Of a stretch of DNA of 64,000 nucleotides, positions 1 through 64,000 are shown piece after piece (positions within the stretch are counted from its first letter, which is position 1; the number at the start of each line of letters is the position of its first letter). The notes beneath the pieces were generated by a model. The model was not told the origin of the DNA. It did not search any database and saw nothing but the letters and a program-made list of their open reading frames with translations. The stretch lies in NCBI GenBank assembly GCA_037783545.1, contig JBBELK010000328.1, forward strand, positions 1,178,001-1,242,000, written 5' to 3'. Both the position numbers and the translations under genes were made by a program. This stretch comes from Henricia sp. BOLD:AAB3569 (Eukaryota > Echinodermata > Asteroidea > Spinulosida > Echinasteridae).

Positions 1-2181
1 CAACTTGACTCAGGACAAGTCGTCTATTAAGACAACTTGACTCGGGACAAGTGGTCTATTAAGACAACTTGACTCAGGACAAGTCGTCTATTAAGATAAC
101 TTGACTGGGGACAAGTCGTCTATTAAGACAACTTGACTCGGGACAAGTCGTCTATTAAGACAACTTGACTCAGGACAAGTCGTCCATTAAGACAACTTGA
201 CTCCGGACAAGTCGTCTATTAAGACAACTTGACTCAGGACAAGTCGTCTATTAAGACAACTTGACTCAGGACAAGTCGTCTATTAAGACAACTTGACTCG
301 GGACAAGTCGTCTATTAAGACAACTTGACTCGGGACAAGTGGTCTATTAAGACAACTTGACTCGGGACAAGTCGTCTATTAAGACAACTTGACTCAGGAC
401 AAGTGGTCTATTAAGACAACTTGACTCCGGACAAGTCGTCTATTAAGACAACTTGACTCAGGACAAGTGGTCTATTAAGACAACTTGACTCCGGACAAGT
501 CGTCTATTAAGACAACTTGACTCAGGACAAGTCGTCTATTAAGACAACTTGACTCAGGACAAGTCGTCTATTAAGACAACTGGACTTGGGACAAGTGGTC
601 TATTAAGACAACTTGACCCGGGACAAGTGGTCTATTAAGACAACTTGACTCGGGACAAGTCGTCTATTAAGACAACTTGACTCGGGACAAGTCGTCCATT
701 AAGACAACTTGACTCGGGACAAGTCGTCTATTAAGACAACTTGACTCAGGACAAGTCGTCTATTAAGACAACTTGACTCTGGACAAGTCGTCCATTAAGA
801 CAACTTGACTCGGGACAAGTCGTCTATTAAGACAACTTGACTCGGGACAAGTCGTCTATCAAGAACACTTGACTCGGGACAAGTCGTCTATTAAGACAAC
901 TTGACTCGGGACAAGTCGTCTATTAAGACAACTTGACTCGGGACAAGTCGTCTATTAAGACAACTTGACTCGGGACAAGTCGTCTATTAAGACAACTTGA
1001 CTCGGGACAAGTGGTCTATTAAGACAACTTGACTCGGGACAAGTCGTCTATTAAGACAACTTGACTCGGGACAAGTCGTCTATTAAGACAACTTGACTCG
1101 GGACAAGTCGTCTATTAAGACAACTTGACTCAGGACAAGTCGTCTATTAAGACAACTTGACTCGGTACAAGTCGTCTATTAAGACAACTTGACTCAGGAC
1201 AAGTCGTCTATTAAGACAACTTGACTGGGGACAAGTCGTCTATTAAGACAACTTGACTCGGGACAAGTCGTCTATTAAGACAACTTGACTCGGGACAAGT
1301 CGTCTATTAAGACAACTTGACTCGGGACAAGTCGTCTATTAAGACAACTTGACTCGGTACAAGTCGTCTATTAAGACAACTTGACTCGGTACAAGTCGTC
1401 TATTAAGACAACTTGACTCAGGACAAGTCGTCTATTAAGACAACTTGACTCAGGACAAGTCGTCTATTAAGACAACTTGACTCGGGACAAGTCGTCTATT
1501 AAGACAACTTGACTCAGGACAAGTCGTCTATTAAGACAACTTGACTCGGGACAAGTCGTCTATTAAGACAACTTGACTCGGGACAAGTCGTCTATTAAGA
1601 CAACTTGACTCGGGACAAGTCGTCTATTAAGACAACTTGACTCGGGACAAGTCGTCTATTAAGACAACTTGACTCGGGACAAGTCGTCTATTAAGACAAC
1701 TTGACTCGGTACAAGTCGTCTATTAAGACAACTTGACTCAGGACAAGTCGTCTATTAAGACAACTTGACTCGGGACAAGTCGTCTATTAAGACAACTTGA
1801 CTCGGGACAAGTCGTCTATTAAGACAACTTGACTCCGGACAAGTCGTCTATTAAGATAACTTGACTCAGGACAAGTCGTCTATTAAGACAACTTGACTCC
1901 GGACAAGTCGTCTATTAAGACAACTTGACTCCGGACAAGTCGTCTATTAAGACAACTTGACTCCGGACAAGTCGTCTATTAAGACAACTTGACTCCGGAC
2001 AAGTCGTCTATTAAGACAACTTGACTCGGGACAAGTCGTCTATCAAGAACACTTGACTCGGGACAAGTCGTCTATTAAGACAACTTGACTCAGGACAAGT
2101 CGTCTATTAAGACAACTTGACTCGGGACAAGTCGTCTATTAAGATAACTTGACTCAGGACAAGTCGTCTATTAAGACAACA
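1..2181. repeat. 32-bp satellite, about 68 units, CDAN1 intron 18
   Basis: The unit CAACTTGACTCGGGACAAGT plus CGTCTATTAAGA repeats without interruption from the window start to about 2181. Units vary mainly at CTCGGG/CTCAGG/CTCCGG and at CGTC/GGTC. A rare variant (TATCAAGAACACTTG) occurs at about 857 and 2041, exactly 37 units apart. The array has no long open frame and probably continues beyond the left edge. Confidence 0.97.
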
Positions 2182-2840
2182 TGATATATGTGATGTATAC
2201 TATATAAATCTATTTAGCTGGTAAAACAACATACAGGTTAATAGCACACAGAATTGGAAAAAATGCTTTTTGTTTAATTTTTTAGACTATTTTTCTACCT
2301 GTGACAAAATAAAAAGATAACAGCTTGAAAATAAGAATTTTGCAATCTCCAATTTGGATGCGGAAGCAAGAAGGCTTGGTGTAATTACTGCACTGCTTTA
2401 TGGAACCGATAAATTAGTATACAAAACATATTGGTTGTTTTTTAGGATATCCTTGAAAATATATCAATTGAGAGCGCAAAATTTCAGAATGGTAATGAGA
2501 AAAATATGACAAATGATATGGTACAAAAACATGTATGAAAATGTCAACACCATTGGGAAAAATGGGGGCTCAAATATGTGATCTGAAGCCAATTTCATCA
2601 AGCTATTTAGCAGAAAAATTTGCTTAATCAAAATTTTTTGTGCTTTATAAAAATAGAATAGTCAAAATTCTATGTCAACTTGTGTTCTTAGCAAGAATAG
2701 CAGAACACCAGTCCATTGTAATACACATCATATAAGATTTTGACTGCTAACCCATTTTTATAAACCAATTTTGGATTAAGCAGCTTTATGAAATCGGGCA
2801 TGGACACACTTCTTGAACTTCTTGTCAGCAGCCAATGTAC
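2182..2840. other. CDAN1 intron 18 remainder with a dispersed repeat
   Basis: AT-rich intron. About 2260-2570 resembles 27940-28240 (shared words GGTGTAAT, CTGCTTTAT, ATAAATTAG, ATTGAGAGCG), so both are copies of one dispersed family. No coding signal seen. Confidence 0.5.
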
Positions 2841-2986
2841 CTTATATTGCTGGATGAGTACGGACGGTGCAGGGACATCCGGGTCATGGCTGTCTGGTAG
2901 ACACAACTTGGGTTTACTATCAGCGTCCTTCTTGGCTGATCTGATGGCCCTGTCAACGCTGTTATTCAATTCTTGCTGGATGGCAG
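2841..2986 (-). CDS. CDAN1: CDAN1 exon 18 (last inside the window)
   Basis: The 146-nt exon follows CGTCTTTAG and precedes GTACAT, ending in phase 0. It encodes AIQQELNNSVDRAIRSAKKD and PDVPAPSVLIQQYK, matching human LIRREVKAAVSRTLRA and HAPLPSHLISEIKD. The following exons, equivalent to the human C-terminus, are not in the window. Confidence 0.88.
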
Positions 2987-5900
2987 CTAAAGACGGGATG
3001 AAAGGAAAGAATTGAGTGGTTGATTATGGCTTACATGTACAAAACATATGAGAAAGCTTTTCTCACAAAATCTTAAACAGCTAGAATCCCCCCGTCCACA
3101 TTTTTTAAGTTTTTCTGTTTATCATGGAGGTGTATGTGTCTACAACTCCATCACAACTTGTTTTTCTTAAAAAATCGACAGGCTTTTGCTTAAAACGTAA
3201 AGCAGTTCCGACCCTCTTCACCCGAAATTCTGAAACGCTCGAGGTTACTTAATTGGTTTGTTGATAAACAGGGTTTTGACGTCATCCTGAGAAACATACA
3301 AAACAGCCTGTGCAGTATTGAATGGAAAATACACGAAGTGAATGTTTATCATGCCTGTTTTGTCCTTGTAATTTAAAATACAAACGTGAAAAACACTTCA
3401 TATAATATGACAACACTCTACTATTACCTGTTTTGTGAAAAAACGGTGAAATTGTGGCTCACAGTGAAGCTCTTTTGAAGTAAATACTGGTGCATTGCGA
3501 CGGGTGGTTTTGTCACGGAACGAACGGCATTCACAGCGGTATATGTACAGCATGGAACAGTACATGTACCTGCGGGCCGCTAGTTCCCACGTGTTTGAAC
3601 ATCGGCCGGTACAAGTTAGAATGAGCGACTCATTTTTATCTCTCTTGGTAATAAAAGAGCAGCTACTGGGCATATCTCTGGCTTTTTGGACCAACAAAAT
3701 TCTTCAAAAAACACCATCTAACAGAGACGGTTTTCCAAGTTGTTTGCGTGTAAACGTATGGAGCTAACAATCGTGTTGACTTCTCTTTCTCAGGATTGCG
3801 TCACGGGGTCACGCGCATATCATGAATACCTAATAAGCGTTTCAGAAATCGCGAAAATCTCATTTTCGAAAAGCGCACTTTTGCTTGCAATTTATCAACT
3901 TAAAACCGACAATTAAATGTTTGGACTATCGAAAACAGCCTAAATGCTAGATTTTCGTGAAGGGGGATTCTTCCTCTTCAAATTTTTTCTCACTCCTAAA
4001 TTTTCCGAGTCAGTTGAAAGGAAAACATTTCTGATCAACCCAAATTCGGGTGGGATTCGAACTGATGACCTCCTGCAAACTTGACAACTAATAGTAATAT
4101 AGTCCTAATCGGGATTCACACTTGAGACATCTGAAACACCGGGCAGATGATCTACCCTCTGAGCTATGAGGCACAGTGGTATACTCCCTCATGTTTCCCC
4201 CAAGACCTCCAACACACAGGGCAGATGCTCTACCAGCTGAGCAATGATGCACAGTGGTATACTCCCTCAGGTTTTCCCCAACACCTCTGACACACCAGGC
4301 AGATGCTCTACCAGGTGAGCTATGAGGCACAGTGGTATACTCCCTCATGTTTCCCCCAAGACCTCCAACACACAGGGCAGATGCTCTACCAGCTGAGCAA
4401 TGATGCACAGTGGTATACTCCCTCAGGTTTTCCCCAACACCTCTGACACACCAGGCAGATGCTCTACCAGGTGAGCTATGAGGCACAGTGGTATACTCCC
4501 TCATGTTTCCCCCAAGACCTCCAACACACAGGGCAGATGCTCTACCAGCTGAGCAATGATGCACAGTGGTATACTCCCTCAGGTTTTCCCCAACACCTCT
4601 GACACACCAGGCAGATGCTCTACCAGGTGAGCTATGAGGCACAGTGGTATACTCCCTCATGTTTCCCCCAAGACCTCCAACACACAGGGCAGATGCTCTA
4701 CCAGCTGAGCAATGATGCACAGTGGTATACTCCCTCAGGTTTTCCCAAACACCTCTGACACACCAGGCAGATGCTCTACCAGCTGAGCTATGAGGCACAG
4801 TGGTATACTCCCTCATGTTTCCCCCAAGACCTCCAACACACAGGGCAGATGCTCTACCAGCTGAGCAATGATGCACAGTGGTATACTCCCTCAGGTTTTC
4901 CCCAACACCTCTGACACACCAGGCAGATGCTCTACCAGCTGAGCTATGAGGCACAGTGGTATACTCCCTCATGTTTCCCCCAAGACCTCCAACACACAGG
5001 GCAGATGCTCTACCAGCTGAGCAATGATGCACAGTGGTATACTCCCTCAGGTTTTCCCCAACACCTCTGACACACCAGGCAGATGCTCTACCAGGTGAGC
5101 TATGAGGCACAGTGGTATACTCCCTCAGGTTTTCCCCCAAGACCTCCAACACACAGGGCAGATGCTCTACCAGCTGAGCAATGATGCACAGTGGTATACT
5201 CCCTCAGGTTTTCCCCAACACCTCTGACACACCAGGCAGATGCTCTACCAGCTGAGCTATGAGGCACAGTGGTATACTCCCTCATGTTTCCCCCAAGACC
5301 TCCAACACACAGGGCAGATGCTCTACCAGCTGAGCAATGATGCACAGTGGTATACTCCCTCAGGTTTTCCCCAACACCTCTGACACACCAGGCAGATGCT
5401 CTACCAGGTGAGCTATGAGGCACAGTGGTATACTCCCTCAGGTTTTCCCCCAAGACCTCCAACACACAGGGCAGATGCTCTACCAGCTGAGCAATGATGC
5501 ACAGTGGTATACTCCCTCAGGTTTTCCCCAACACCTCTGACACACCAGGCAGATGCTCTACCAGGTGAGCTATGAGGCACAGTGGTATACTCCCTCAGGT
5601 TTTCCCCCAAGACCTCCAACACACAGGGCAGATGCTCTACCAGGTGAGCAATGATGCACAGTGGTATACTCCCTCAGGTTTTCCCCAACACCTCTGACAC
5701 ACCAGGCAGATGCTCTACCAGGTGAGCTATGAGGCACAGTGGTATACTCCCTCATGTTTCCCCCAAGACCTCCAACACACAGGGCAGATGCTCTACCAGC
5801 TGAGCAATGATGCACAGTGGTATACTCCCTCAGGTTTTCCCCAACACCTCTGACACACCAGGCAGATGCTCTACCAGGTGAGCTATGAGGCACAGTGGTA

Positions 5901-8900
5901 TACTCCCTCATGTTTCCCCCAAGACCTCCAACACACAGGGCAGATGCTCTACCAGCTGAGCAATGATGCACAGTGGTATACTCCCTCAGGTTTTCCCCAA
6001 CACCTCTGACACACCAGGCAGATGCTCTACCAGGTGAGCTATGAGGCACAGTGGTACACTCCCTCAGGTTTCCCCCAAGACCTCCAACACACAGGGCAGA
6101 TGCTCTACCAGCTGAGCAATGATGCACAGTGGTATACTCCCTCAGGTTTTCCCCAACACCTCTGACACACCAGGCAGATGCTCTACCAGGTGAGCTATGA
6201 GGCACAGTGGTATACTCCCTCAGGTTTCCCCCAAGACCTCCAACACACAGGGCAGATGCTCTACCAGGTGAGCTATGATGCACAGTGGTATACTCCCTCA
6301 GGTTTTCCCCAACACCTCTGACACACCAGGCAGATGCTCTACCAGGTGAGCTATGAGGCACAGTGGTATACTCCCTCAGGTTTCCCCCAAGACCTCCAAC
6401 ACACAGGGCAGATGCTCTACCAGGTGAGCTATGAGGCACAGTGGTATACTCCCTCAGGTTTCCCCCCAACACCTCTGACACACCAGGCAGATGCTCTACC
6501 AGGTGAGCTATGAGGCACAGTGGTATACTCCCTCAGGTTTCCCCCAAGACCTCCAACACACAGGGCAGATGCTCTACCAGGTGAGCTATGAGGCACAGTG
6601 GTATACTCCCTCAGGTTTCCCCCCAACACCTCTGACACACCAGGCAGATGCTCTACCAGGTGAGCTATGAGGCACAGTGGTATACTCCCTCAGGTTTCCC
6701 CCCAACACCTCTGACACACAGGGCAGATGCTCTACCAGGTGAGCTATGATGCACAGTGGTATACTCCCTTAGGTTTTCCCCCAAGACCTCTGACACACCA
6801 GGCAGATGCTCTACCGGTTGAGCTACATGTATGAGGTACAGGGGTATACTTCTTCTGGTTGACCTACATGTACGACCAGCTGTGCACTGTATAGCTCAGC
6901 TGGTAGAGCGTCTGCCCAGTGAGTCAGAGGTCTCGGGTTCAAATCCCAATAAGGCCCTTACAATTTGTCTCTAATCCCAAGTTTGGTTATGACGCACCTT
7001 GTATCTGCGTGTCAATCCAGCGAGCCGCTCTCTCCATAGCTAGCCGGCTAGTGATATAAGCCGCAGCCTTTAAGACTTGTTCCGATGTCTCAATAGGAAG
7101 CAGCACAGACAATGCCATTTGACTTCTACTGGACACAAACCTTTCAAGTAAAAAGTATCAATAACTTTGATTAAATAGCAGCTCTTAAAGACCGATCACA
7201 TGACTGGAAAACGTTTAATAACAAGATTACGTAACTAAAAAATAATGTTGATAAACTGCCTTGTAGAAATTTCAGCCATATAGATGCAGTAATACTTCAG
7301 AAAACCTGAACAATCCATGCATGTTTTGTGTTAAAACGCAACCCTGTATAACATCAAATAACTCACTCATTTGCTTTCTTTTTAGCTGCTTCTCTGGTTG
7401 CTATAGTAATCTCCTCACCCCTGGCCTTAATTCGTCTCAATAGTGCTCTCTTCATCTCTGTAGACCACTCTTCATCTAGTGTCCCGACTTCTTCTGATCT
7501 GACTTCACATTCTAAGAGTCTGATTGCCGCATTGCGAGCTGCCGAGACCAGCGTAGCATCGATGTGTTTGATGCAGTTTGAGGACAATCGAGAGCTGATG
7601 AAATCCACCGTCTTCTTCAATGATGGAGAGTGATTGTCAAAGAAGTTCTTCTCCAGATCTTGCTGCAAACATGATTAGGCAATTCATTTTAATAATCGGA
7701 TTAATTTTAGTTTTGATCACAATATTTTAAATAAAGAGATTATTACATCGGCTCATTTGATGTTAAATGAATGCATTTTGCCCGTACATGACACGTTGTG
7801 TATGGGAAAATTATACCAATCTCATAACATTATCGTCATCATCCAATGTCGATATTAAAACTTGCCTTTTGGAAGAAATAATTTTGGGATGGTAAAGCAC
7901 GTATTCTTGCCTAAAACTGTTTGTGTATGAGAACAAATATATATATCTCCAATTCTACATCTTATTCTCCATCAAACTATCGCAGTAAATTCTTGTGTTC
8001 AAACACATCCACTGGGGTCACATGCTCAAAGTTGGTATTACTTAAAGATCACAGTACGGTAGTCTTAGTGTAAACTTGGGAAATAAAGCGTACCTGAAGT
8101 TGGTGCGCTGTCTGAATGGATGGGGGAGGAGTCTTGGCTGAAATTGGCGTGATCTTTTTCATTGGTGTTGTTTTAGACCCACAACCCAATGATGCATCTG
8201 ATAACAGTACTCGCACATCGCCTGTAGGTGGTGCAAAGATAAGTCAAAATCAAACTACAATGTCCAAGTATGGGATGAAAAAAGGTCGACTCTATTAAGC
8301 CCGAGTCAATTCGAATAATTTAGTATACGAATATTCGATTTTTAAATTATTCGAATATTCGATCGTGTATTTGTTCCCAAAAGAAAAGGCCCCAAACCTG
8401 TGGCGGTCTGATCGCCGGTGGCAGAAAACACATGCCCTAATTTCCGGGTTTGAAATTTGAGATGTTTGCTTTCAAGATTTTGAGGGTATCCAAATACCCA
8501 ACCATTACGGTTACTGTGAATTTGGTTCTTTTCAAACCCAAATTATCATAAAACTTCTTATCTCCCATTTTTGTTCGAATTCCAAAAGAAATATTTAAAT
8601 ATTAGATTTTCGATCGAATATTCGAATATTCGAATATTTGGCACAGGCTTACACTCTATCATTAGCAATGACCCAATATTACCTCATCAGTTGTCCAGGG
8701 AAAATAACGTAATAATGAAGTGTTTGACAAACACCACATGAATATATTTCTGTCCAAGACGGTACTTTCTGTAAATTAACAAATTAAATCATATTAAAGG
8801 AGAATCGAGAGATAAACTGCCCTGTGATTGGTCAATGATATCTCACCTAGATATGGACAGCAGAGATAGAGTAACTGCTGGTCTACTAGACGATGGCCGT

Positions 8901-11900
8901 CTAGCGCTGTGCTGAAGGGAGCTTCATGGTTTGTCACAGTGTCTACGATGAAGTCATCAGTAAAACTCATAAAGTACATGGATGTGGGTCAGCTGACCAC
9001 ATACTGCCCTGTGATTGGTCAATGATATCTCACCTAGATATGGACAGCAGAGATAGAGTAACTGCTGGTCTACTAGACGATGGCTGTCTAGCGCTGTGCT
9101 GAATGGAGCTTCATGGTTTGTCACAGTGTCTACGATGAAGTCATCAGTAAAACTCATAAAGTACATGGATGTGGGTCAGCTGACCACATACTGCCCTGTG
9201 ATTGGTCAATGATATCTCACCTAGATATGGACAGCAGAGATAGAGTAACTGCTGGTCTACTAGACGATGGCTGTCTAGCGCTGTGCTGAAGGGAGCTTCA
9301 TGGTTTGTCACAGTGTCTACGATTAAGTCATCAGTAAAACTCATAAAGTACATGGATGTGGGTCAGCTGACCACATACTGCCCTGTGATTGGTCAATGAT
9401 ATCTCACCTAGATATGGACAGCAGAGATAGAGTAACTGCTGGTCTACTAGACGATGGCCGTCTAGCGCTGTGCTGAATGGAGCTTCATGGTTTGTCACAG
9501 TGTCTACGATGAAGTCATCAGTAAAACTCATAAAGTACATGGATGTGGGTCAGCTGACCACATACTGCCCTGTGATTGGTCAATGATATCTCACCTAGAT
9601 ATGGACAGCAGAGATAGAGTAACTGCTGGTCTACTAGACGATGGCCGTCTAGCGCTGTGCTGAATGGAGCTTCATGGTTTGTCACAGTGTCTACGATGAA
9701 GTAATCAGTAAAACTCATAAAGTACATGGATGCTGGCATTCGGGTCAGCTGACCACATACTGCCCTGTGATTGGTCAATGATATCTCACCTAGATATGGA
9801 CAGCAGAGATAGAGTAACTGCTGGTCTACTAGACGATGGCCGTCTAGCGCTGTGCTGAATGGAGCTTCATGGTTTGTCACAGTGTCTACGATGAAGTCAT
9901 CAGTAAAACTCATAAAGTACATGGACGTGGGTCAGCTGACCACATACTGCCCTGTGATTGGTCAATGATATCTCACCTAGATATGGACAGCAGAGATAGA
10001 GTAACTGCTGGTCTACTAGACGATGGCCGTCTAGCGCTGTGCTGAAGGGAGCTTCATGGTTTGTCACAGTGTCTACGATGAAGTCATCAGTAAAACTCAT
10101 AAAGTACATGGATGTGGGTCAGCTGACCACATACTGCCCTGTGATTGGTCAATGATATCTCACCTAGATATGGACAGCAGAGATAGAGTAACTGCTGGTC
10201 TACTAGACGATGGCTGTCTAGCGCTGTACTGAATGGAGCTTCATGGTTTGTCACAGTGTCTACGATGAAGTCATCAGTAAAACTCATAAAGTACATGGAT
10301 GTGGGTCAGCTGACCACATACTGCCCTGTGATTGGTCAATGATATCTCACCTAGATATGGACAGCAGAGATAGAGTAACTGCTGGTCTACTAGACGATGG
10401 CTGTCTAGCGCTGTGCTGAAGGGAGCTTCATGGTTTGTCACAGTGTCTACGATGAAGTCATCAGTAAAAGTCATAAAGTACATGGATGCTGGCATTCGGG
10501 TCAGCTGACCACATACTGCCCTGTGATTGGTCAATGATATCTCACCTAGATATGGACAGCAGAGATAGAGTAACTGCTGGTCTACTAGACGATGGCCGTC
10601 TAGCGCTGTGCTGAATGGAGCTTCATGGTTTGTCACAGTGTCTACGATGAAGTCATCAGTAAAACTCATAAAGTACATGGACGTGGGTCAGCTGACCACA
10701 TACTGCCCTGTGATTGGTCAATGATATCTCACCTAGATATGGACAGCAGAGATAGAGTAACTGCTGGTCTACTAGACGATGGCTGTCTAGCGCTGTACTG
10801 AATGGAGCTTCATGGTTTGTCACAGTGTCTACGATGAAGTCATCAGTAAAACTCATAAAGTACATGGATGTGGGTCAGCTGACCACATACTGCCCTGTGA
10901 TTGGTCAATGATATCTCACCTAGATATGGACAGCAGAGATAGAGTAACTGCTGGTCTACTAGACGATGGCTGTCTAGCGCTGTGCTGAAGGGAGCTTCAT
11001 GGTTTGTCACAGTGTCTACGATGAAGTCATCAGTAAAAGTCATAAAGTACATGGATGCTGGCATTCGGGTCAGCTGACCACATACTGCCCTGTGATTGGT
11101 CAATGATATCTCACCTAGATATGGACAGCAGAGATAGAGTAACTGCTGGTCTACTAGACGATGGCCGTCTAGCGCTGTGCTGAATGGAGCTTCATGGTTT
11201 GTCACAGTGTCTACGATGAAGTCATCAGTAAAACTCATAAAGTACATGGATGCTGGCATTCGGGTCAGCTGACCACATACTGCCCTGTGATTGGTCAATG
11301 ATATCTCACCTAGATATGGACAGCAGAGATAGAGTAACTGCTGGTCTACTAGACGATGGCTGTCTAGCGCTGTGCTGAATGGAGCTTCATGGTTTGTCAC
11401 AGTGTCTACGATGAAGTCATCAGTAAAACTCATAAAGTACATGGATGTGGGTCAGCTGACCACATACTGCCCTGTGATTGGTCAATGATATCTCACCTAG
11501 ATATGGACAGCAGAGATAGAGTAACTGCTGGTCTACTAGACGATGGCTGTCTAGCGCTGTGCTGAAGGGAGCTTCATGGTTTGTCACAGTGTCTACGATG
11601 AAGTCATCAGTAAAAGTCATAAAGTACATGGATGCTGGCATTCGGGTCAGCTGACCACATACTGCCCTGTGATTGGTCAATGATATCTCACCTAGATATG
11701 GACAGCAGAGATAGAGTAACTGCTGGTCTACTAGACGATGGCCGTCTAGCGCTGTGCTGAATGGAGCTTCATGGTTTGTCACAGTGTCTACGATGAAGTC
11801 ATCAGTAAAACTCATAAAGTACATGGATGTGGGTCAGCTGACCACATACTGCCCTGTGATTGGTCAATGATATCTCACCTAGATATGGACAGCAGAGATA

Positions 11901-14900
11901 GAGTAACTGCTGGTCTACTAGACGATGGCTGTCTAGCGCTGTGCTGAATGGAGCTTCATGGTTTGTCACAGTGTCTACGATGAAGTCATCAGTAAAAGTC
12001 ATAAAGTACATGGATGCTGGCATTCGGGTCAGCTGACCACATACTGCCCTGTGATTGGTCAATGATATCTCACCTAGATATGGACAGCAGAGATAGAGTA
12101 ACTGCTGGTCTACTAGACGATGGCCGTCTAGCGCTGTGCTGAAGGGAGCTTCATGGTTTGTCACAGTGTCTACGATGAAGTCATCAGTAAAACTCATAAA
12201 GTACATGGATGTGGGTCAGCTGACCACATACTGCCCTGTGATTGGTCAATGATATCTCACCTAGATATGGACAGCAGAGATAGAGTAACTGCTGGTCTAC
12301 TAGACGATGGCTGTCTAGCGCTGTGCTGAATGGAGCTTCATGGTTTGTCACAGTGTCTACGATGAAGTCATCAGTAAAACTCATAAAGTACATGGATGCT
12401 GGCATTCGGGTCAGCTGACCACATACTGCCCTGTGATTGGTCAATGATATCTCACCTAGATATGGACAGCAGAGATAGAGTAACTGCTGGTCTACTAGAC
12501 GATGGCTGTCTAGCGCTGTGCTGAATGGAGCTTCATGGTTTGTCACAGTGTCTACGATTAAGTCATCAGTAAAACTCATAAAGTACATGGATGTGGGTCA
12601 GCTGACCACATACTGCCCTGTGATTGGTCAATGATATCTCACCTAGATATGGACAGCAGAGATAGAGTAACTGCTGGTCTACTAGACGATGGCCGTCTAG
12701 CGCTGTGCTGAATGGAGCTTCATGGTTTGTCACAGTGTCTACGATGAAGTCATCAGTAAAACTCATAAAGTACATGGACGTGGGTCAGCTGACCACATAC
12801 TGCCCTGTGATTGGTCAATGATATCTCACCTAGATATGGACAGCAGAGATAGAGTAACTGCTGGTCTACTAGACGATGGCCGTCTAGCGCTGTGCTGAAG
12901 GGAGCTTCATGGTTTGTCACAGTGTCTACCATGAAGTCATCAGTAAAACTCATAAAGTACATGGATGCTGGCATACCAGGGACCTGTGAATGAGTAACAG
13001 TGATTTACAGTGTGTTATGATCAAACCTGTATGGGTTTTATTGGGATTTGAACCCGATATGGTCCATTTCAATGGCGATTAGACAACATACTAAATATTG
13101 CATTCGTTACTTTGATCAGTTGCACTCACATGCAACACCGATAAACAAGTTGGGTTCACAGGGAAAACCCGAGGACTATATCACTGTGCCTCACAATTCA
13201 GCTGGTAGAGCATCTGCCTGGCGTGTCAGAGGTCTTGGGTTAAAATCCCGATAAGGCTCGTGCGATTTGTCACTCATCCCACGTTTGGTTGTTTCATTTC
13301 AATGGTGATTAGGCACCATAACAAATAGGGTGCTATGATGTCATGCAGACAACCAAAAAGCATTACCAGTGTCTGTATTACAGGAGAAAAAGGTAAAATA
13401 CAATATATGGTATGGTGCCTAATAACCATTGAAATGAAACAACAAACCATGAGATGAAAGATGAATTATACAGTCCTCACCAGGAAATTAGAAATTTGTT
13501 GATTTTGAATCTACAGTACCATCCATTAATTATTACGGGTTTGTCCAATTGTAATGCACTTTGCTTATCGTCTTCAACTTCTGCAACTTTTATAGCTTTT
13601 GTTTTACCTTCCGGTTCTATTTCTACTACTTCTATGTGGCTTGCCACTAGCGAACTGATGAAATGACTGTCAATTAGGTATTCTACTTATGCTCGAGTTT
13701 ACTGCCGGATTGGTCTGTACTTCTACGTGGAGTTTGTTGATATCGTTGATATCCAACCTGAAGTTTCCTATCCTAAATTTGGGCAATACAAACTTGACTA
13801 CTTTGGTAAATGCCAACATTAACGGCAAGCCTAAACCATTAATCATCTCGGCACTGATCTTAGCTTCATATAGTTGGTTTAATTTAATCAAACTTTCTTC
13901 GTTCATGGTTTCTGCTTTTTCTGGGGGTATTCCTTGCCGAGGTAGGCCTTTGATTTATTGAAAGCCACTACTTTGAGAATTTTTAGTTTTTAAATCGTCA
14001 GACTGAGGTTTACTCTCTTTTAAAATATTGTCAAATTCCATCTTCATCTTTTAAATATAGATTTTACTTAATCCACTAAGAAAATTCTGCAAGTAGAAGG
14101 CTATTTAACCTGTGTCAAGGATGTTAATTGGGGTTTGTATTTTGCCGTCAGGAAAGGGCAAAACAAAACCCTACTTAACGTCCAAGGCTCTGCCAGGGTC
14201 AAAACGTGAGGACTTGACAGTCTGTGTGACAAACATGCCATGAAGAAAATGTGAATTATAGACTGGTTATGTGAAAGACTCGAATTCTGTCTCATGTCTC
14301 TGATTCCTTAGTCACAGCTTCCACTGACCTCAAAGAGCCATCCTAGGACCAGGAGAATGAGGAGCATGTTGTAGCTGGTCTGATCCATGGACAACATCCT
14401 GGAAACATCCCTGAGGAGGGAATAAGACATTCCTGAAGTTATAGCTCTGAAAAAATACTGAAACAGCCTCATTGTTATCAATTACATGTAGGTTCTGCCA
14501 TGACCGGTTTTAATTATTCAATTTTTTTGGGTATTTAATCACAGCCCGTAGGCTAAATTGTATCTTCCTCCTAAACATGGAGATACATGGGTCATTATTC
14601 CATGAAAACGGGACAGTGTCCCCCGTACATCATGACACTTTTGGAGATTTTTTATAATTAATGGACTTCAAAGAATGATTACCCTCGGCATATACATGTA
14701 AATAATATATGACCTCATGAATTGAACACCACGTTTATCTCTTTATACTACCCAAAACATAATGAGAACGATTCAATAAACTAGTGCGATCTTCTAAATG
14801 CAAGTGTGACATTTTAAAACTTGTAAAACATTTTCAAAACGTAACAAATTTCGCTCATAATGTATTATAACTCGATAAAGGTTTTACAGCTGGGTAAAAT

Positions 14901-43222: not shown

Positions 43223-43337
43223 ATGTTGAAAAGATCGTGCCCTTTCGAGTCTCACCCGAATCAGCTGAAAACTCACGTCGGACAGAAGGAAGTTGCGCAA
43301 GGTGTTAACAAGGAAAAGCACATGAAAGAAGTTTATG
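43223..43337 (+). CDS. SIVA1: SIVA1 exon 1, coding part
   Basis: The exon encodes MLKRSCPFESHPNQLKTHVG and EVAQGVNKEKHMKEVY, and ends in phase 1 before GTAAAT. An in-frame upstream ATG at 43211 would add MILN; the ATG at 43223 aligns with the human start MPKRSCPF and is preferred. Confidence 0.9.
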
Positions 43338-53502: not shown

Positions 53503-53821
53503 AGTGTACACCTATCTTCCTGTCGCAAGGGTCTCTGCTCCACATCGAGTTGAGCTAAGCTGTATTAGGACCCCGGGCTGTTCGACCAATGAGAGATCCT
53601 GAAAACTTGTCACAGCACTTTTGACCTTTTAATGAAGCTGTTTCGACCAATCATCTCGCGCGTTGTATCAGCTCGCGACATCGTAGCCGACAATTACCAC
53701 AATTCCTATGGGGGAGATCTTTTTTATGTACATGTATATCATTTTATCGTACACTTATGTACGCAGTATAAATGTTCGTAACTGAAGGAAGACCCTTGCG
53801 ACAGGAAGATGGTGTACACCA
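53503..53821. mobile_element. 319-bp TIR element
   Basis: GTGTACACCTATCTTCCTGT and CGCAAGGGTCT at the left pair with AGACCCTTGCGACAGGAAGA and TGGTGTACACC at the right. Interior contains no gene. Confidence 0.72.
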
Positions 53822-54915: not shown

Positions 54916-55035
54916 TTATTTCTTCTTGATAACATCCTCAGACTTAATGTTGTAATACTGGTGTCTAAGGGCCTCGTTGGTAACGGAGCGATTCTTGGCC
55001 ACTTTCTTAGCCTTGTCTCTGGATGGCATGAACGC
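54916..55035 (-). CDS. third gene, terminal exon f with stop
   Basis: After TTGCTGCAG the exon encodes AFMPSRDKAKKVAKNRSVTN and EALRHQYYNIKSEDVIKKK, then TAA at 54916-54918. The very basic tail is unusual. A possible ATTAAA signal lies near 54543 on the minus strand. Confidence 0.85.
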   Translation of the reverse strand, partial: AFMPSRDKAKKVAKNRSVTNEALRHQYYNIKSEDVIKKK

Positions 55036-58000
55036 CTGCAGCAAGACGGAGTTGGACAAATGGTTAAAGTCCCAATACAACATTTGCAGTTAATCAACAT
55101 TTTACTATATGAGTTGACAAGGAAAGACGACAAAGTGTTGATAGCAATAGGAAAAAAAAAACAATATGATTTGTTTTCCCCTGTGTAAAATGTTACCTTT
55201 GTGGGAGAAATTGCCAACTGAAGGTGCTTTATTTTCTGCAGACAATTTTTTCACCATTCATTCAACACAAAAACCATGCATGGATTTTCTAGGTTTTCTG
55301 AAGTATTACTCCATTTAAATGTGGCTGAAATTTCTACAAGGCAATATCAACATTCTTTAGTTATGCTGGTCCTGTTTTTAGAAGTTTTTTAATCATGTAA
55401 TCCATCTATAATTGTGTGATTTTTCAAAAATTAAACAGTTATCACACAGCAGAATACGGCATTATGTAGTGCATATATCTACATCCCATATGTGACCTGC
55501 TCTGTAATAATGAGACAAATGTTCTGCAGATAGACTGGGTCGAGTTTTCACGACCACTAGTAGGAATCTGCAGCAGATCCAGCCTCATAAATACAAAAAC
55601 ACAATGGAAATGTCTGGCGGAACCCGGACATTCCAGACAGTATCTGGGCACCGCCAGGAATTTCCAATTTCTACTTGTGGTTGCGAAAACTCGACCTAGC
55701 CTGCAGAACATACGTCACAGACTATAGACCCTTTGTGCATCTATTGTCAGGGGCCGTCCAAAGTTATCAACATTTTCACGGTTCTACAAAGCGTAGGAAG
55801 GGGGAGGGGGGTCGAGAGCCAAGATTATGACACTTCATGGTACTGACAGAAGGAGTAGTACGGAGGAGGGAGGTGGTCTTAAAAAATACTCTGCTTTGTA
55901 GAACTGTGAAAATGTTGACAGCTTTGGACAGCCCCTTAGGTATTTATAGCAAAACAAAATCAAGAAAACATTCACAAAAATTTAAGGTTACATTTTCACA
56001 ACTACATGTAAAGCCCGCTGCACACCTTTGCGATTCACCGGCCAATCGTCCCCACATACCAGAAAGGTGTGCGCTGAAACAATTTGGGCCGGTCTGACCA
56101 TAACACCGCACGACGGGACAAATCAAACTTGATTGATTTTTCCGCATCTGATGGACCGGTGTCCGATAAATAGCAAAGGCGTGCGGCGGGCTTAAAATAG
56201 CCAACATTTTTCCCCTTACCTCAATGTCTGCATCAAGTCATCAGATAACGGAGCTGATTGATAGGTCGCACCGCCGGCAGCTAGTTAGGTGCTCCATAAG
56301 GGAGGAGCTATGGAGGGGGTACAATGCCTGCCTTGCAGGGGGGTGGCTTGCCTCCATGTTTGACTTCTTGGTCTGCATCATGTCATCAGATAACAGAGCT
56401 GGTTGATAGGTCGCACCGCCGGCAGCTGGTTAGGTGCTCCATAAGGGAGGAGCTATGAGGAGTACAATGCCTGCCTTGCAGGGCGGTGGCTTACCTCCAT
56501 GTTTGATTTCTTGGTCTGCATCATGTCATCAGATAACGGAGCTGGTTGATAGGACGCACTGCCGGCAGCTGGTTAGGTGCTCCATAAGGGAGGAGCTATG
56601 GAGGGGTACAATGCCTGCCTTGCAGGGCGGTGGCTTACCTCCATGTTTGATTTCTTGGTCTGTTTGAGCTTGGTCTGCATCATGTCATCAGATAACGGAG
56701 CTGGTTGATAGGTCGCACCGCCGGCAGCTAGTTAGGTGCTCCATAAGGAAGGAGCTATGAGGGGTACAATGCCTGCCTTGCAGGGCGGTGGCTTACCTCC
56801 ATGTTTGATTTCTTGGTCTGTTTGAGCTTGGTCTGCATCATGTCATCAGATAACGGAGCTGGTTGATAGGTCGCACCGCCGGCAGCTAGTTAGGTGCTCC
56901 ATAAGGGAGGAGCTATGGAGGGGTACAATGCCTGCCTTGCAGGGCGGTGGCTTACCTCCAGGTTTTTTTTCTTGGTCTGTTTGAGTTTGGTCTGCATCAT
57001 GTCATCAGATAACGGAGCTGGTTGATAGGTCGCACCGGCGGCAGCTGGTTAGGTGCTCCATAAGGGAGGAGCTATGAGGGGTACAATGCCTGCCTTGCAG
57101 GGCGGTGGCTTACCTCCAGGTTTGATTGCTTGGTCTGCATCATGTCTTCAGATAACGGAGCTGATTGATAGGACGCACCGGCGGCAGCTGGTTAGGTGCT
57201 CCATAAGGGAGGAGCTATGAGGAGTACAATGCCTGCCTTGCAGGGCGGTGGCTTACCTCCATGTTTGATTTCCTGGTCTGTTTGAGCTTGGTCTGCATCA
57301 TGTCATCAGATAACGGAGCTGATTGATAGGACGCACCGGCGGCAGCTAGTTAGGTGCTCCATAAGGGAGGAGCTATGAGGAGTACAATGCCTGCCTTGCA
57401 GGGCGGTGGCTTACCTCCATGTTTGATTTCCTGGTCTGTTTGAGTTTGGTCTGCATCATGTCATCAGATAACGGAGCTGGTTGATAGGTTGCACCGCCGG
57501 CAGCTAGTTAGGTGCTCCATAAGGGAGGAGCTATGGAGGGGTACAATGCCTGCCTTGCAGGGCGGTGGCTTACCTCCATGTTTGATTTCCTGGTCTGTTT
57601 GAGTTTGGTCTGCATCATGTCATCAGATAACGGAGCTGGTTGATAGGTCGCACCGCCGGCAGCTAGTTAGGTGCTCCATAAGGGAGGAGCTATGAGGAGT
57701 ACAATGCCTGCCTTGCAGGGCGGTAGCTTACCTCCATGTTTGATTTCTTGGTCTGTTTGAGTTTGGTCTGCATCATGTCATCAGATAACGATGCTGGTTG
57801 ATAGGTCGCACCGGCGGCAGCTAGTTAGGTGCTCCATAAGGGAGGAGCTATGAGGGGTACAATGCCTGCCTTGCAGGGCGGTGGCTTACCTCCATGTTTG
57901 ATTGCTTGGTCTGCATCATGTCATCAGATAACGGAGCTGGTTGATAGGTCGCACCGGCGGCAGCTGGTTAGGTGCTCCATAAGGGAGGAGCTATGAGGAG

Positions 58001-61000
58001 TACAATGCCTGCCTTGCAGGGCGGTGGCTTACCTCCAGGTTTGATTTCTTGGTCTGTTTGAGCTTGGTCTGCATCATGTCTTCAGATAACGGAGCTGATT
58101 GATAGGACGCACCGGCGGCAGCTAGTTAGGTGCTCCATAAGGGAGGAGCTATGAGGAGTACAATGCCTGCCTTACCTCCATGTTTGATTTCTTGGTCTGT
58201 TTGAGCTTGGTCTGCATCATGTCTTCAGATAACGGAGCTGATTGATAGGACGCACCGGCGGCAGCTAGTTAGGTGCTCCATAAGGGAGGAGCTATGGAGG
58301 GGTACAATGCCTGCCTTGCAGGGCGGTGGCTTACCTCCATGTTTGATTTCTTGGTCTGTTTGAGCTTGGTCTGCATCATGTCTTCAGATAACGGAGCTGA
58401 TTGATAGGACGCACCGGCGGCAGCTAGTTAGGTGCTCCATAAGGGAGGAGCTATGGAGGGGTACAATGCCTGCCTTGCAGGGCGGTGGCTTACCTCCATG
58501 TTTGATTTCTTGGTCTGTTTGAGCTTGGTCTGCATCATGTCTTCAGATAACGGAGCTGATTGATAGGACGCACCGGCGGCAGCTAGTTAGGTGCTCCATA
58601 AGGGAGGAGCTATGGAGGGGTACAATGCCTGCCTTGCAGGGCGGTGGCTTACCTCCATGTTTGATTTCTTGGTCTGTTTGAGCTTGGTCTGCATCATGTC
58701 TTCAGATAACGGAGCTGATTGATAGGACGCACCGGCGGCAGCTAGTTAGGTGCTCCATAAGGGAGGAGCTATGGAGGGGTACAATGCCTGCCTTGCAGGG
58801 CGGTGGCTTACCTCCATGTTTGATTTCTTGGTCTGTTTGAGCTTGGTCTGCATCATGTCTTCAGATAACGGAGCTGATTGATAGGACGCACCGGCGGCAG
58901 CTAGTTAGGTGCTCCATAAGGGAGGAGCTATGGAGGGGTACAATGCCTGCCTTGCAGGGCGGTGGCTTACCTCCATGTTTGATTTCTTGGTCTGTTTGAG
59001 CTTGGTCTGCATCATGTCTTCAGATAACGGAGCTGATTGATAGGACGCACCGGCGGCAGCTAGTTAGGTGCTCCATAAGGGAGGAGCTATGAGGAGTACA
59101 ATGCCTGCCTTGCAGGGGGGTGGCTTACCTCCATGTTTGATTTCTTGGTCTGTTTGAGCTTGGTCTGCATCATGTCTTCAGATAACGGAGCTGATTGATA
59201 GGACGCACCGGCGGCAGCTAGTTATTAGGTGCTCCATAAGGGAGGAGCTATGGAGGGGTACAATGCCTGCCTTGCAGGGCGGTGGCTTACCTCCAGGTTT
59301 GATTTCTTGGTCTGTTTGAGCTTGGTCTGCATCATGTCTTCAGATAACGGAGCTGATTGACAGGACGCACCAGGGGGAGCTAGTTTGTATTGATGTGGTC
59401 GATATGCAAGTTGAGATTCTCCAGATGATTGAGGTTGAGGCGCAGACTATGAGAGAATAGAAACGAATGGTCAATGCCTAGGTTGCCTTCCAAACACGCA
59501 AACATTGCAGTTATTTGTCGACAGGTACGGCGGCGGTAGAGGAGTGCACGAAGGCACTGTAACCAGTGACGAACGTTGGCAATGTCTGCGTAAGTGGAGC
59601 ACAGGCCTGGGATCAATTTAATAAAGTACCCAAATCCATCGCAACTTGCCAAACCTTTGTTTGCCACAGGTTCAGCGAATTACCATTGATTTGGGCACTT
59701 GCGACATGTCGCAAATCTTAATGAAATAGAACCCTGGTCTATTAAAGGAGCGTGTTCAGAAAAATGGATTTCGTTTTAACCTAACAATCATATTAAATAC
59801 CTCCCCAAAATACTATTCATGGGAAAAAAACAGGACATTTGCAATCTGCAATTTGCACGTGCGACGTGCCTTGCTTTTAGATAAAGCGATGTGGAGGGAA
59901 TTTTGAGTGAAACGATGCACTGAAAATCACTGAATTATGAAATTTTGTGGAAGGAACTGTATTTGGTTTTCAGTGCATTGTAGGGTACCATGGCCCAAGT
60001 GGTTTGGGTCACTGACTCACAATACTCGAGTGAAAACTTGGGGTTGCAGGTTCGATACCCGGCTGGGGTACCTATGCCCTTGAGCAAGGCACTTAAACAC
60101 ACTTGCTCTATCCTTCGGAAGGGATTTAAAGCCGTTGGTCCAGTGTGTTGTGTAAGGGGATTCCACCTACATGTATGTAGTTCGAAGGTTTGGTGAAAGA
60201 CACTTGTAACCTACAGGCTGCAAATTGAGGTTCATTAAACCCATTAAATAAATAAAATAGATAAATAAAAATGAGTCTTTGGAATGGCCTTACCCTTTGC
60301 TGCAGCATGTTGTCAAAGTCCATAGCGACTCCCAAGTAGTTGCTGGCCGATTCACGTTGATCATCGGTGTGAGCCGCTCTGGTCAGATAACGGCCATGGG
60401 AGTACCTGGACAGAAATGCATCACATATTGTATAATACAAAATCAAAAAGATAACGTCCACACTTTATTTATTAAAACAAACTTTTTCTTGAATGACTAA
60501 AAACAAAAATGCTGAAGACTTTTACATTTGGGCTCATGTAGACCAGAGAACAATGTTTGTTTCGTCTGTTCATCTACATGTATGTTCAGCGTCTGCTTTA
60601 TTTAATGTCTGTGTCAATACTTTCCAATACAATCCCCTGTTACTGTCACAGCTACATGTAGAAGACCCTTTAATTGCCTGCAGCTGACTGGGCTATTCCT
60701 ACAGCGGACAGTTATACTCTATCCTAAGCAGTAAATGGGTGCTTACAGCTAGTTTCATACAATTTGGCCCTGCTCAGTCTACTTACAGATGAAGTCGAGC
60801 ATTTTCAATCTGGTTTTTCTCAGCGAGTGCCGCGGCTTGGCGCATGGCTGCTACTGACGTCACTGCAGCATTCAGATTCTTAATAATAACAATATTATAA
60901 TCGGGTAAGGGCAAAACAAACCCTAATTAACAACAAATATAACAAACCTACAGAGGATGCTGATTCACAATGTCATTTTGCAGTGGCTGTCATTATTCAA

Positions 61001-64000
61001 GCATTTGTTGTAATACTCTTCATAAGACTTTTAGTGCATAGATACAATTTATTTTATTTTTTGAATGAACAGATGCTCGCGTATCAGAGCTGAACTATAA
61101 AGCATAAACTTTAAGCTACAATATGTCACAAAATGCAAATTAAAATTAAATGACGGCTCATAAATGATTGCGAGAGAACCTCCAGCAATATTTAGTCAAA
61201 GCAGGCACAAACTCAACAAAATGAATGACTCGTACCTGCTCCATCTGTTGTCTGTCTGCTGTTGTCTTGCGTTCCTCGGTGACGATGCGTAGAAATCGAC
61301 GTCCATCGGTCTTCGTGTATTTTATCTGGACCTATTGATATATACCAAATGATACATACTCATGAAAATGGCAAACAATTATTTGTAATACGTCCACATA
61401 ACTCCATTAATAGCTAGAACCGAAACAGAGCCGAGACGTGCATAACTGCACTTTCTCATTAGCATAGTTTTAGGCACCTTCATTTGCATAGTATTGGACA
61501 CTATTTGCATAGTTTTGGGCACTGAATTGAATATCACGTAAAACCTTCCGCATGCGCAATTTTTGAATGTTTGTGATGATCGTGTGTTATATTCAAACAC
61601 AAAATGTGCAAATTTGCGCACGCGTTCCAAACCGCCCGAAACTTACAATGTATCTAGCTTTTAATATAAATCTGAGACTAGGTCTAAAAAAAGGAATCAT
61701 ACTTTTGATCCTAAATGTCATTTGCCAACGGATATAAACCAAAATGTTAGATAATGTAAACAAGGCCTGACAAATTGTATTGAGCGACTTGACTCAGCTT
61801 TTAAATCTGAACCTCCGAGAAGTTGAGATTTAAAAATGCTATTTTAGAATGTGTGACTTCTGACTTGACGTCCTCCAATGTGGATACATACTGCAGCCAA
61901 AATGTCATTGCACACCTCCTTGATCGTTTTGTGCAACTCATCAAGAGGTGCAAAGGGACCTCTGACATAGATCATTTCTTTGACATTGAAGGAATGCTGC
62001 ATCACCCCTAATGTCATTGCACACCTCCTTGATCGTTTTGTGCATCTCATCAAGAGGTGCAAAGGGACCTCTGACATAGATCATTTCTTTGACATTGAAG
62101 GAATGCTGCATCACCCCTAATGTCATTGCACACCTCCTTGATCGTTTTGTGCATCTCATCAAGAGGTGCAAAGGGACCTCTGACATAGATCATTTCTTTG
62201 ACATTGAAGGAATGCTGCATCACCCCTAATGTCATTGCACACCACCTTGATCGTTTTGTGCATCTCATCAAGAGGTGCAAAGGGACCTCTGACATAGATA
62301 ATTTCTTTGACATTGAAGGAATGCTGCATCACCCCTAATGTCATTGCACACCTCCTTGATCGTTTTGTGCAACTCATCAAGGGGTGCAAAGGGACCTCTG
62401 ACATTGAAGGAATGCTGCATCACCCCTAATGTCATTGCACACCACCTTGATCGTTTTGTGCAACTCATCAAGAGTTGCAAAGGGACCTCTGACATTGAAG
62501 GAATGCTGCATCACCCCTAATGTCATTGCACACCACCTTGATCGTTTTGTGCATCTCATCAAGAGGTGCAAAGGGACCTCTGACATTGAAGGAGTGCTGC
62601 ATCACCCCTAATGTCATTGCACACCACCTTGATCGTTTTGTGCAACTCATCAAGAGGTGCAAAGGGACCTCTGACATTGAAGGAGTGCTGCATCACCCCT
62701 AATGTCACTGCACACCACCTTGATCGTTTTGTGCAACTCATCAAGAGGTGCAAAGGGACCTCTGACATTGAAGGAGTGCTGCATCACCCCTAATGTCATT
62801 GCACACCACCTTGATCGTTTTGTGCAACTCATCAAGAGGTGCAAAGGGACCTCTGACATAGATCATTCTTTGACATTGAAGGAGTGCTGCATCACCCCTA
62901 ATGTCATTGCACACCACCTTGATCGTTTTGTACAACTCATCAAGAGGTGCAAAGGGACCTCTGACATTGAAGGAATGCTGCATCACCCCTAATGTCACTG
63001 CACACCACCTTGATCGTTTTGTGCATCTTATCAAGAGGTGCAAAGGGACCTCTGACATAGATCATTTCTTTGACATTGAAGGAATGCTGCATCACCCCTA
63101 ATGTCATTGCACACCACCTTGATCGTTGTGTGCATCTCATCAAGAGGTGCAAAGGGACCTCTGACATAGATCATTTCTTTGACATTGAAGGAATGCTGCA
63201 TCACCCCTAATGTCATTGCACACCACCTTGATCGTTTTGTGCAACTCATCAAGAGGTGCAAAGGGACCTCTGACATTGAAGGAATGCTGCATCACCCCTA
63301 ATGTCACTGCACACCACCTTGATCGTTTTGTGCAACTCATCAAGAGGTGCAAAGGGACCTCTGACATTGAAGGAATGCTGCATCACCCCTAATGTCACTG
63401 CACACCACCTTGATCGTTTTGTGCATCTTATCAAGAGGTGCAAAGGGACCTCTGACATAGATCATTTCTTTGACATTGAAGGAATGCTGCATCACCCCTA
63501 ATGTCACTGCACACCACCTTGATCGTTTTGTGCAACTCATCAAGAGGTGCAAAGGGACCTCTGACATTGAAGGAATGCTGCATCACCCCTAATGTCACTG
63601 CACACCACCTTCATCGTTTTGTGCATCTCATCAAGAGGTGCAAAGGGACCTCTGACATAGATCATTTCTTTGACATTGAAGGAATGCTGCATCACCCCTA
63701 ATGTCACTGCACACCACCTTGATCGTTTTGTGCAACTCATCAAGAGGTGCAAAGGGACCTCTGACATTGAAGGAATGCTGCATCACCCCTAATGTCACTG
63801 CACACCACCTTGATCGTTTTGTGCAACTCATCAAGAGGTGCAAAGGGACCTCTGACATAGATCATTTCTTTGACATTGAAGGAATGCTGCATCACCCCTA
63901 ATGTCACTGCACACCACCTTGATCGTTTTGTGCATCTCATCAAGAGGTGCAAAGGGACCTCTGACATGGATCATTTCTTTGACATTGAAGGAATGCTGCA
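54916..64000 (-). CDS. 3' part of an unidentified gene; Sec23-like/vWA-associated C-terminal region suspected
   Basis: Six exons join in frame: 62007(?)-61865, 61331-61236, 60878-60787, 60405-60294, 59446-59291, 55035-54916. The product reads GPFAPLDELHKTIKEVCNDI, VQIKYTKTDGRRFLRIVTEE, NLNAAVTSVAAMRQAAALAE, YSHGRYLTRAAHTDDQRES and a basic tail ending NIKSEDVIKKK. A beta-strand block (IKYTKTDGRRFLRI) followed by Ala-rich helices recalls the Sec23-type trunk and the domain after vWA in circularly permuted Ras 1-like or Vwaint-type proteins; this is from memory and weak. That it is a real gene is well supported by splice sites and phases. The N-terminal part is off the right edge. Two of its exons sit in tandem arrays. 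Confidence 0.75.
55520..55711. mobile_element. 192-bp MITE
   Basis: TGTTCTGCAGATAGACTGGG and TCGAGTTTTCACGACCAC pair with the inverse GTGGTTGCGAAAACTCGA and CTAGCCTGCAGAACA. The inner part is also near-palindromic. Confidence 0.72.
55750..55936. mobile_element. 187-bp MITE
   Basis: GGGGCCGTCCAAAGTTATCA and ACATTTTCACGGTTCTACAA pair with TTGTAGAACTGTGAAAATGT and TGACAGCTTTGGACAGCCCC. Confidence 0.75.
56011..56193. mobile_element. 183-bp MITE
   Basis: AAGCCCGCTGCACACCTTTG pairs with CAAAGGCGTGCGGCGGGCTT. The interior contains further imperfect inverted words (ACCGGCC/GGCCGGT). Confidence 0.72.
56222..59390 (-). repeat. 21-copy tandem array of third-gene exon e
   Basis: Units of about 142-163 bp contain the second half of exon e (GASYQSAPLSEDMMQ to KKSNME), its GTAAGC donor and about 70 bp of intron with GCAAGGCAGGCATTGTACCC. 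Some units lack KLKQT codons (shorter form). The 5'-most copy has the true acceptor and the SAPQPQ half; the 3'-most ends DLMQTLR before GTAAGG. Confidence 0.93.
59291..59446 (-). CDS. third gene, exon e (5'-most, complete copy of the array)
   Basis: The 156-nt, phase-0 exon follows CTCTCATAG and precedes GTAAGC. It encodes SAPQPQSSGESQLAYRPHQY, then SEDMMQTKLKQTKKSNLE. It is the first transcribed of 21 tandem copies and the only one with the SAPQPQ half and the authentic acceptor. Confidence 0.85.
59447..60293. other. third gene, intron between exons d and e
   Basis: It holds a short dispersed repeat at 59755-59820 (AACCTAACAATCATATTAAA, also at 27985) and the SINE at 59985-60200. Otherwise unremarkable. 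Confidence 0.5.
59985..60200 (+). repeat. tRNA-derived SINE with V-domain-like body
   Basis: CATGGCCCAAGTGGTTTGGG (A-box) and TTGCAGGTTCGATACCCGG (B-box) are followed by GCCCTTGAGCAAGGCACTTA, which resembles the V domain of V-SINEs, and the (AAATA)n-like tail near 60240. Confidence 0.75.
60294..60405 (-). CDS. third gene, exon d
   Basis: The 112-nt exon between CTGTCCAG and GTAAGG encodes YSHGRYLTRAAHTDDQRES and NYLGVAMDFDNMLQQR. It restores phase 0. Confidence 0.85.
60787..60878 (-). CDS. third gene, exon c
   Basis: The 92-nt exon between ATTATTAAG and GTAAGT encodes NLNAAVTSVAAMRQAAALAE and KNQIENARLHL, an Ala-rich helix. It ends in phase 2. Confidence 0.85.
61236..61331 (-). CDS. third gene, exon b
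   Basis: The 96-nt, phase-0 exon between ATCAATAG and GTACGA encodes VQIKYTKTDGRRFLRIVTEE and RKTTADRQQMEQ. The pattern of alternating hydrophobics with a DGRR turn looks like two beta strands. Confidence 0.85.
61865..62007 (-). CDS. third gene, exon a (3'-most copy of an exon array)
   Basis: The 3' end is fixed: CIHIGGRQ followed by GTCAGA, phase 0. The 5' border is uncertain: an ACATTAG at 62008 would give 143 nt starting MQHSFNVKEMIYVRGPF, while a closer CAG before GPFAPL is also possible. Only this copy has LAAVCIHIGGRQ; all others run from VCNDI into the next repeat unit. Confidence 0.65.
61869..64000 (-). repeat. tandem array (at least 21 copies) of third-gene exon a
   Basis: Units of 91 or 109 bp (one near 108) each contain RGPFAPLDELHKTIKVVC followed by NDIRGDAAFLQC-type sequence. 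The 109-bp form has 18 extra bases (AGATCATTTCTTTGACAT on the plus strand). Both 91 and 109 leave one base over a codon multiple. The transcription-last copy keeps the real exon end; the other end is off the window. Both strands stay open by chance of composition. Confidence 0.92.

Follow-up and report, generated by a model that had tools for sequence, protein, structure and literature searches.

The stretch of DNA analysed here, referred to as the window, consists of 64,000 nucleotides from the sea star Henricia sp. and carries CDAN1, SIVA1 and the 3′ part of a putative third gene (Table 1). CDAN1 exons 2–18, when joined, give 1110 codons free of stops, and all 17 exons are preceded by AG and followed by GT. 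The CDAN1 model shows 72% identity to the Acanthaster planci protein over 721 residues (query residues 380–1100); over the same residues the identity is 67% with Asterias amurensis and 51% with Amphiura filiformis. A 741 aa query, which runs from the end of exon 2 to exon 18, aligns over its residues 10–739 with codanin-1 of PDB entry 9cvc (E-value = 5.4e-140), presumably the human protein. Proteins of Acanthaster, Asterias and other echinoderms match the model exon by exon when it is spliced through the intact exon copies listed in Table 1. By homology, the protein is predicted to continue beyond exon 18, toward or past the left end of the window. An exon-like stretch at 8775–8690 was rejected as a part of CDAN1; its phase does not fit, and the model without it aligns there with 9cvc.

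SIVA1 displays stop-free exon frames with GT-AG introns, and a Pfam Siva domain is found in exons 2–4 (E-value = 5.3e-11). The coding total as modelled is 4381 bp in 27 exons, CDAN1 exon 1 and exons outside the window excluded; the original prediction gave approximately 4.5 kb.

Table 1. Genes, tandem arrays and intact exon copies in the 64,000 nt window
Feature	Positions	Strand	Description
CDAN1 exons 2–18	2841..38953	(-)	17 exons, homology and open frame
SIVA1	43223..50040	(+)	4 exons, complete frame, 174 aa plus stop
Putative third gene, 3′ part	~64000 to 54916	(-)	frame open through six putative exons
CDAN1 exon 3 array	36443..36709	(-)	145-bp unit, 2 copies, acceptor and 5′ exon part
CDAN1 exon 3 intact copy	36547-36367	(-)	last copy of array
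CDAN1 exon 5 array	32076..34945	(-)	125-bp unit, 23 copies, whole 90-nt exon and donor
CDAN1 exon 5 intact copy	34943-34854	(-)	first copy of array
Likely decayed duplicate of CDAN1 exon 7 acceptor and start	31350..31399	(-)	51 bp, 78% identity, direct
CDAN1 exon 12 array	18750..19340	(-)	148/151-bp unit, 4 copies, acceptor and 5′ exon part
CDAN1 exon 12 intact copy	18817-18657	(-)	last copy of array
CDAN1 exon 14 array	8816..12967	(-)	187/195-bp unit, 22 copies, 3′ exon part, donor and intron start
CDAN1 exon 14 intact copy	12983-12830	(-)	first copy of array
SIVA1 exon 3 array	47968..48232	(+)	96-bp unit, 3 copies including diverged first, acceptor and 5′ exon part
SIVA1 exon 3 intact copy	48163-48298	(+)	last copy of array
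T5 array	56240..59385	(-)	~159-bp units, 20 copies and one degenerate; putative in-frame exon T5
T1 array	61901..64000	(-)	109/91-bp units, 20–21 copies, continues off window end
Putative exon T1	61961-61892	(-)	donor end within last array copy

Several other features were seen in the introns. CDAN1 intron 12 contains a retroelement-like open frame (17442–16579) with an integrase zinc-binding domain (Pfam E-value = 6.9e-7), which by eye is flanked on both sides by long similar sequence. A long inverted repeat, also recognized by eye, is situated directly 3′ of SIVA1 exon 1 (43404–43935) and contains a short direct match.

The window is rich in tandem repeats. TRF gave 45 overlapping rows; these were merged by hand into 18 arrays, with small rows scoring below 100 dropped, and the low end of the T5 array was extended by eye (TRF itself gives 56510–59385). 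The 18 arrays occupy 25,691 of the 64,000 bases (40%). A 32-bp unit is repeated 68 times at the left edge of the window (1–2184), past CDAN1 exon 18 and probably intronic. Tandem monomers that are tRNA-like (SINE-like) are found at 20398–25997, 26885–27072 and 4130–6825, and consist of a 102-bp unit with approximately 55 copies plus a 78/156-bp unit. Twelve of the 13 Rfam tRNA matches are in 102-bp units and one is just outside the 78-bp array; ARAGORN called no tRNA.

The original prediction was that seven exons of three neighbouring genes sit in tandem arrays of 2 to 23 copies. For five of these the exon is supported by homology: CDAN1 exons 3, 5, 12 and 14 and SIVA1 exon 3, with 2, 23, 4, 22 and 3 copies, respectively. 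The count of 23 at exon 5 comes from 19 anchored units, two of which are three-copy blocks. The complete exon said to remain at one end of the array is present in all five. The other two, termed T1 and T5, belong to the putative third gene and are plausible as exons; at T1 only the donor end is within the window. The arrays are of two types. On the acceptor side (CDAN1 exons 3 and 12, SIVA1 exon 3) the intact copy is the last one, and on the donor side (CDAN1 exons 14 and 5) it is the first. The repeat unit spans a single exon border at CDAN1 exons 3, 12 and 14 and SIVA1 exon 3, and at CDAN1 exon 5 it comprises the whole exon and its donor.

The copies other than the intact one, here called decoys, were compared with genuine splice sites by use of a small matrix built from 20 acceptors and 20 donors within the window. 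At exon 5, 17 of the 23 copies matched the pattern required for scoring. The acceptor of the intact copy scores 15.5 in sample and 12.1 when left out of the matrix; the other 16 give −0.2, −1.9 or −15.5 at the exon start, so that among the 17 copies scored a strong exon-start acceptor is found only in the intact one. The donors of the exon 5 copies score 8.1 or 4.3. Elsewhere the best cryptic partner donors reach 3.8 (exon 3), 3.9–4.7 (exon 12) and 1.3 (SIVA1 exon 3), with a genuine minimum of 4.4 and median of 8.6; the best cryptic partner acceptor at exon 14 reaches 3.2, with a genuine minimum of 5.3 and median of 12.0. A rule of one splice site per decoy is nevertheless not strict. In 6 of the 16 stretches between exon 5 decoy donors there is a cryptic AG of 6.3–7.4, exceeding the lowest score of a genuine acceptor (5.3), and the cryptic donor of one exon 12 decoy (4.7) likewise exceeds the lowest score of a genuine donor (4.4).

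The reading frame is open through the intact copies and is broken by the decoys. For 42 of the 43 decoys examined (3 at exon 12, 2 at SIVA1 exon 3, 21 at exon 14 and 16 of the 22 present at exon 5), extending the exon to the decoy site brings in a stop codon within the extension. The 43rd, at exon 3, shifts the frame and leads to a stop 57 codons on. The exon 5 peptide also distinguishes the copies. The intact copy encodes KFYELIRYWL, and the Acanthaster sequence is KFYELVREWL; the 18 anchored decoys encode RFYELAPEWL (15), RFYELAPRWL (2) and KFYELAPRWL (1). Thus the intact copy retains the R that is conserved in the relatives, and its I is similar to their V. At one residue, however, 15 of the 18 decoys have E as in the relatives and the intact copy has Y, i.e. 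the decoys look more ancestral there.

Near-identical copies are poorly handled by assemblers, and the arrays or their copy numbers might be artefacts of assembly. This is considered very improbable. Variant copies are interspersed, e.g. the 187- and 195-bp forms at exon 14 and the two three-copy blocks at exon 5, which is not expected from simple collapse or stutter, and the unit length differs between loci.

At the exon 11/12 joint of CDAN1 (18817), two residues are missing that are present in all six aligned echinoderm relatives. Since the exon 12 acceptor sits within the array, the array may have moved the splice site of this exon.

Intron gain by AG/GT duplication was considered for exon 14, whose units carry CTAG/GTGAG, and was rejected, since the repeats are located inside the intron and can be explained without a new exon junction.

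The third gene is less secure. No homologue was found in PDB (best E-value 0.51) or in protein searches, which covered relatives of approximately 102–866 aa, so that longer ones could be missed, and all Pfam matches are far below the cut-off. The acceptors of the presumed intact copies of T1 (−2.6) and T5 (−2.1) are lower than all 20 acceptors of CDAN1 and SIVA1 (lowest leave-one-out value −1.2). Codon scores in the reading frame are 0.149 (T1), 0.21 (T2), 0.125 (T3), 0.156 (T4) and 0.319 (T5), and these values reach, approach or exceed the 95% points of a null made from open intronic segments, which are 0.151 (70 nt), 0.157 (93 nt), 0.148 (112 nt) and 0.222 (36 nt); T5 compares with 0.222 and T1 with 0.151. 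T6 (−0.019) is unremarkable. Because of the weak acceptors, the negative homology searches and a T4 to T6 junction that stays in frame when T5 is omitted, T1 and T5 are regarded as no more than plausible exons of a third gene.

The copies could be in use as alternative or repeated exons in some transcripts, which would give the amplification a product. In each of the 20 full T5 copies (36 nt in 16, 21 nt in 4) the length is a multiple of three and the frame stays open; the donor is GT in 19 and GC in one, and the copies are spaced 107–126 nt apart. The open frame leaves room for T5 as a repeated microexon, and the cryptic acceptors of some exon 5 decoys point in the same direction. On the other hand, the acceptors of the 20 T5 copies score −1.7 or −2.1, again below all 20 acceptors of CDAN1 and SIVA1, and T5 is itself no more than a plausible exon; exon 5 copies are only approximately 35 nt apart, and the acceptor- and donor-type decoys have no homologous partner site. 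Use of the copies is rated improbable.

Three local direct repeats are found outside the arrays (offset 30–1500 bp, E-value up to 1e-3), and one of them is at an exon start. It repeats the acceptor of CDAN1 exon 7 together with the beginning of that exon (31296–31196) and is situated 95 bp upstream. The alignment is shorter than the full 95-bp offset, and the sequence suggests that this is likely a decayed tandem duplication. It is possibly an eighth and older case of exon-border amplification.

The frequency of overlap between arrays and exons was compared with chance placement in the window. An array was counted if it includes at least 10 bp of modelled exon, and arrays were collapsed to one unit each, giving a map of 39,866 bases of which 4381 are exon. 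Seven of the 18 arrays are on exons versus 2.8 expected from shuffled placement (P = 0.014), where this and the following P values refer to one window picked in a genome scan and are uncorrected for that pick. For units of at least 60 bp the count is 7 of 12 (P = 0.0017), and with the tRNA-like arrays also removed it is 7 of 9 (P = 0.00015); both the unit-length cut and the subsets were chosen after the data had been seen. Block rotation gives P = 0.017 and 0.0032.

These values, together with the duplicate at exon 7, where one of only three local direct repeats again falls at an exon start, are what would be expected from a mutational process that specifically favours exon–intron borders, e.g. 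breakage linked to nucleosomes, R-loops, GC content or the spliceosome, with a true enrichment as the result. However, exons outside arrays (GC 0.476) and the arrays themselves (0.507) are both GC-richer than the non-exon sequence outside arrays (0.392). When placement is matched for GC, 4.15 arrays on exons are expected (P = 0.095), and the two chosen subsets give P = 0.019 and 0.0017, respectively. When the third gene is left out, CDAN1 and SIVA1 alone show 5 of 16 versus 2.65 expected (P = 0.11; GC-matched 0.33), or 5 of 10 for units of at least 60 bp (P = 0.025; GC-matched 0.11). The excess of arrays on exons is thus modest and fragile. It is not regarded as established, because the subsets are post hoc and this window was itself selected by a genome scan, and the enrichment was rejected as proof of a border-seeking process. 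The overlap beyond chance that the original prediction described holds for simple shuffling in this window and weakens under GC matching or without the third gene; the local process that it proposed as one explanation is not established and is viewed as unlikely.

Its other explanation, survival of just those duplications that leave a spliceable copy, is in keeping with the anatomy of the arrays, but much of that anatomy is a matter of geometry. Whenever the duplicated segment spans one exon border, a whole exon is kept at one end of the array. Not one of the seven arrays is wholly within an exon, and purifying selection is not demonstrated by this, because only 1.5 are expected there (P = 0.19), or 0.6 without the long exon 2 (P = 0.52).

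The reading preferred here, with a probability of about 0.72, is that the arrays are minisatellites of the mirage type described in amphioxus, in which the repeat unit by chance includes an exon border and the copies are mostly ignored in splicing. An array would start with a local tandem duplication, probably by slippage or end-joining, and would later grow by unequal exchange. Where the unit includes one border only, i.e. an acceptor and exon start or an exon end and donor, the whole exon would be kept at one end and the remaining copies would be decoys lacking the matching second splice site. The decoys would be mostly ignored because this second site is missing or degraded: splicing by exon definition would mostly skip them, a normal protein would result, and the array could expand almost neutrally within the intron. 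Two further points limit this account. T5 copies, if real exons, have an acceptor as well as a donor and are at odds with the decoy model. A true excess of exon overlap would mean that chance placement alone does not account for the arrays.

Mirage minisatellites were reported in the amphioxus genes Adh3 and the globins BflGb6 and BflGb9 as repeats across an intron/exon border (PMC3087553), and further ones in troponin C and PGBD5 (PMC3902484). They involve the 5′ or 3′ border, have units of approximately 10–160 bp and carry splice signals in many copies (PMC3087553, PMC3902484). Splicing seemingly proceeds as normal, array length is variable and the edge copies are spared homogenisation; mirages are listed with length polymorphism and somatic instability, and a model of intron gain was also drawn from them (PMC3087553). 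The sea star arrays are similar to these descriptions in that the unit spans an exon border, either border is amplified and an intact exon is kept, which is predicted to be the copy used in mRNA. For the less homogenised edge copies of the amphioxus mirages the comparison is mixed: edge copies here are often the most diverged (E5_01, E12_01, T5_21 and, at SIVA1 exon 3, S3_01), but the first exon 14 copy is barely diverged (2 differences), contrary to strict edge exclusion. The sea star arrays differ in that the organism is not a lancelet and that five to seven cases are found across three neighbouring genes. Copy number is up to approximately 23, whereas 3 copies in one haplotype and 6 in the other are described for one amphioxus globin gene.

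Two other known systems share parts of this structure. Ordinary intronic minisatellites or VNTRs have the same architecture and a likely expansion by unequal exchange, but their unit does not include coding sequence and a splice site as it does here. Introns are also said to be gained by tandem duplication in a model of Rogers, and human introns reportedly arose from tandem arrays (Zhuo et al. 2007). The arrays resemble such intron gain in their exon-derived tandem copies with AG and GT signals, and are unlike it in that the copies lie within an intron beside an intact exon.

In a search of open-licence literature, none of the titles listed reports such exon-border arrays in sea stars. Judged against the amphioxus descriptions cited above, the taxon and the density are new here and the type of structure is already known. 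A much broader proposal would be that exon borders in sea stars are recurrently and preferentially amplified, so that a stock of one-sided decoys exists across the genome. Such decoys would arise, lose the second splice site and decay, as at exon 7, and would occasionally shift a splice site, as at exon 12, or supply new exons. This proposal is speculative and rather doubtful.

Mirages, described only in lancelets in the passages cited, are here extended to an echinoderm, at high density in this window. Where long reads and RNA-seq exist for a genome, the origin of mirages, how splicing tolerates them and what part they play in intron change could be measured. The CDAN1 exon 5 array, in which the decoys keep the donor and have a degraded exon-start acceptor, offers a naturally occurring test of exon definition.
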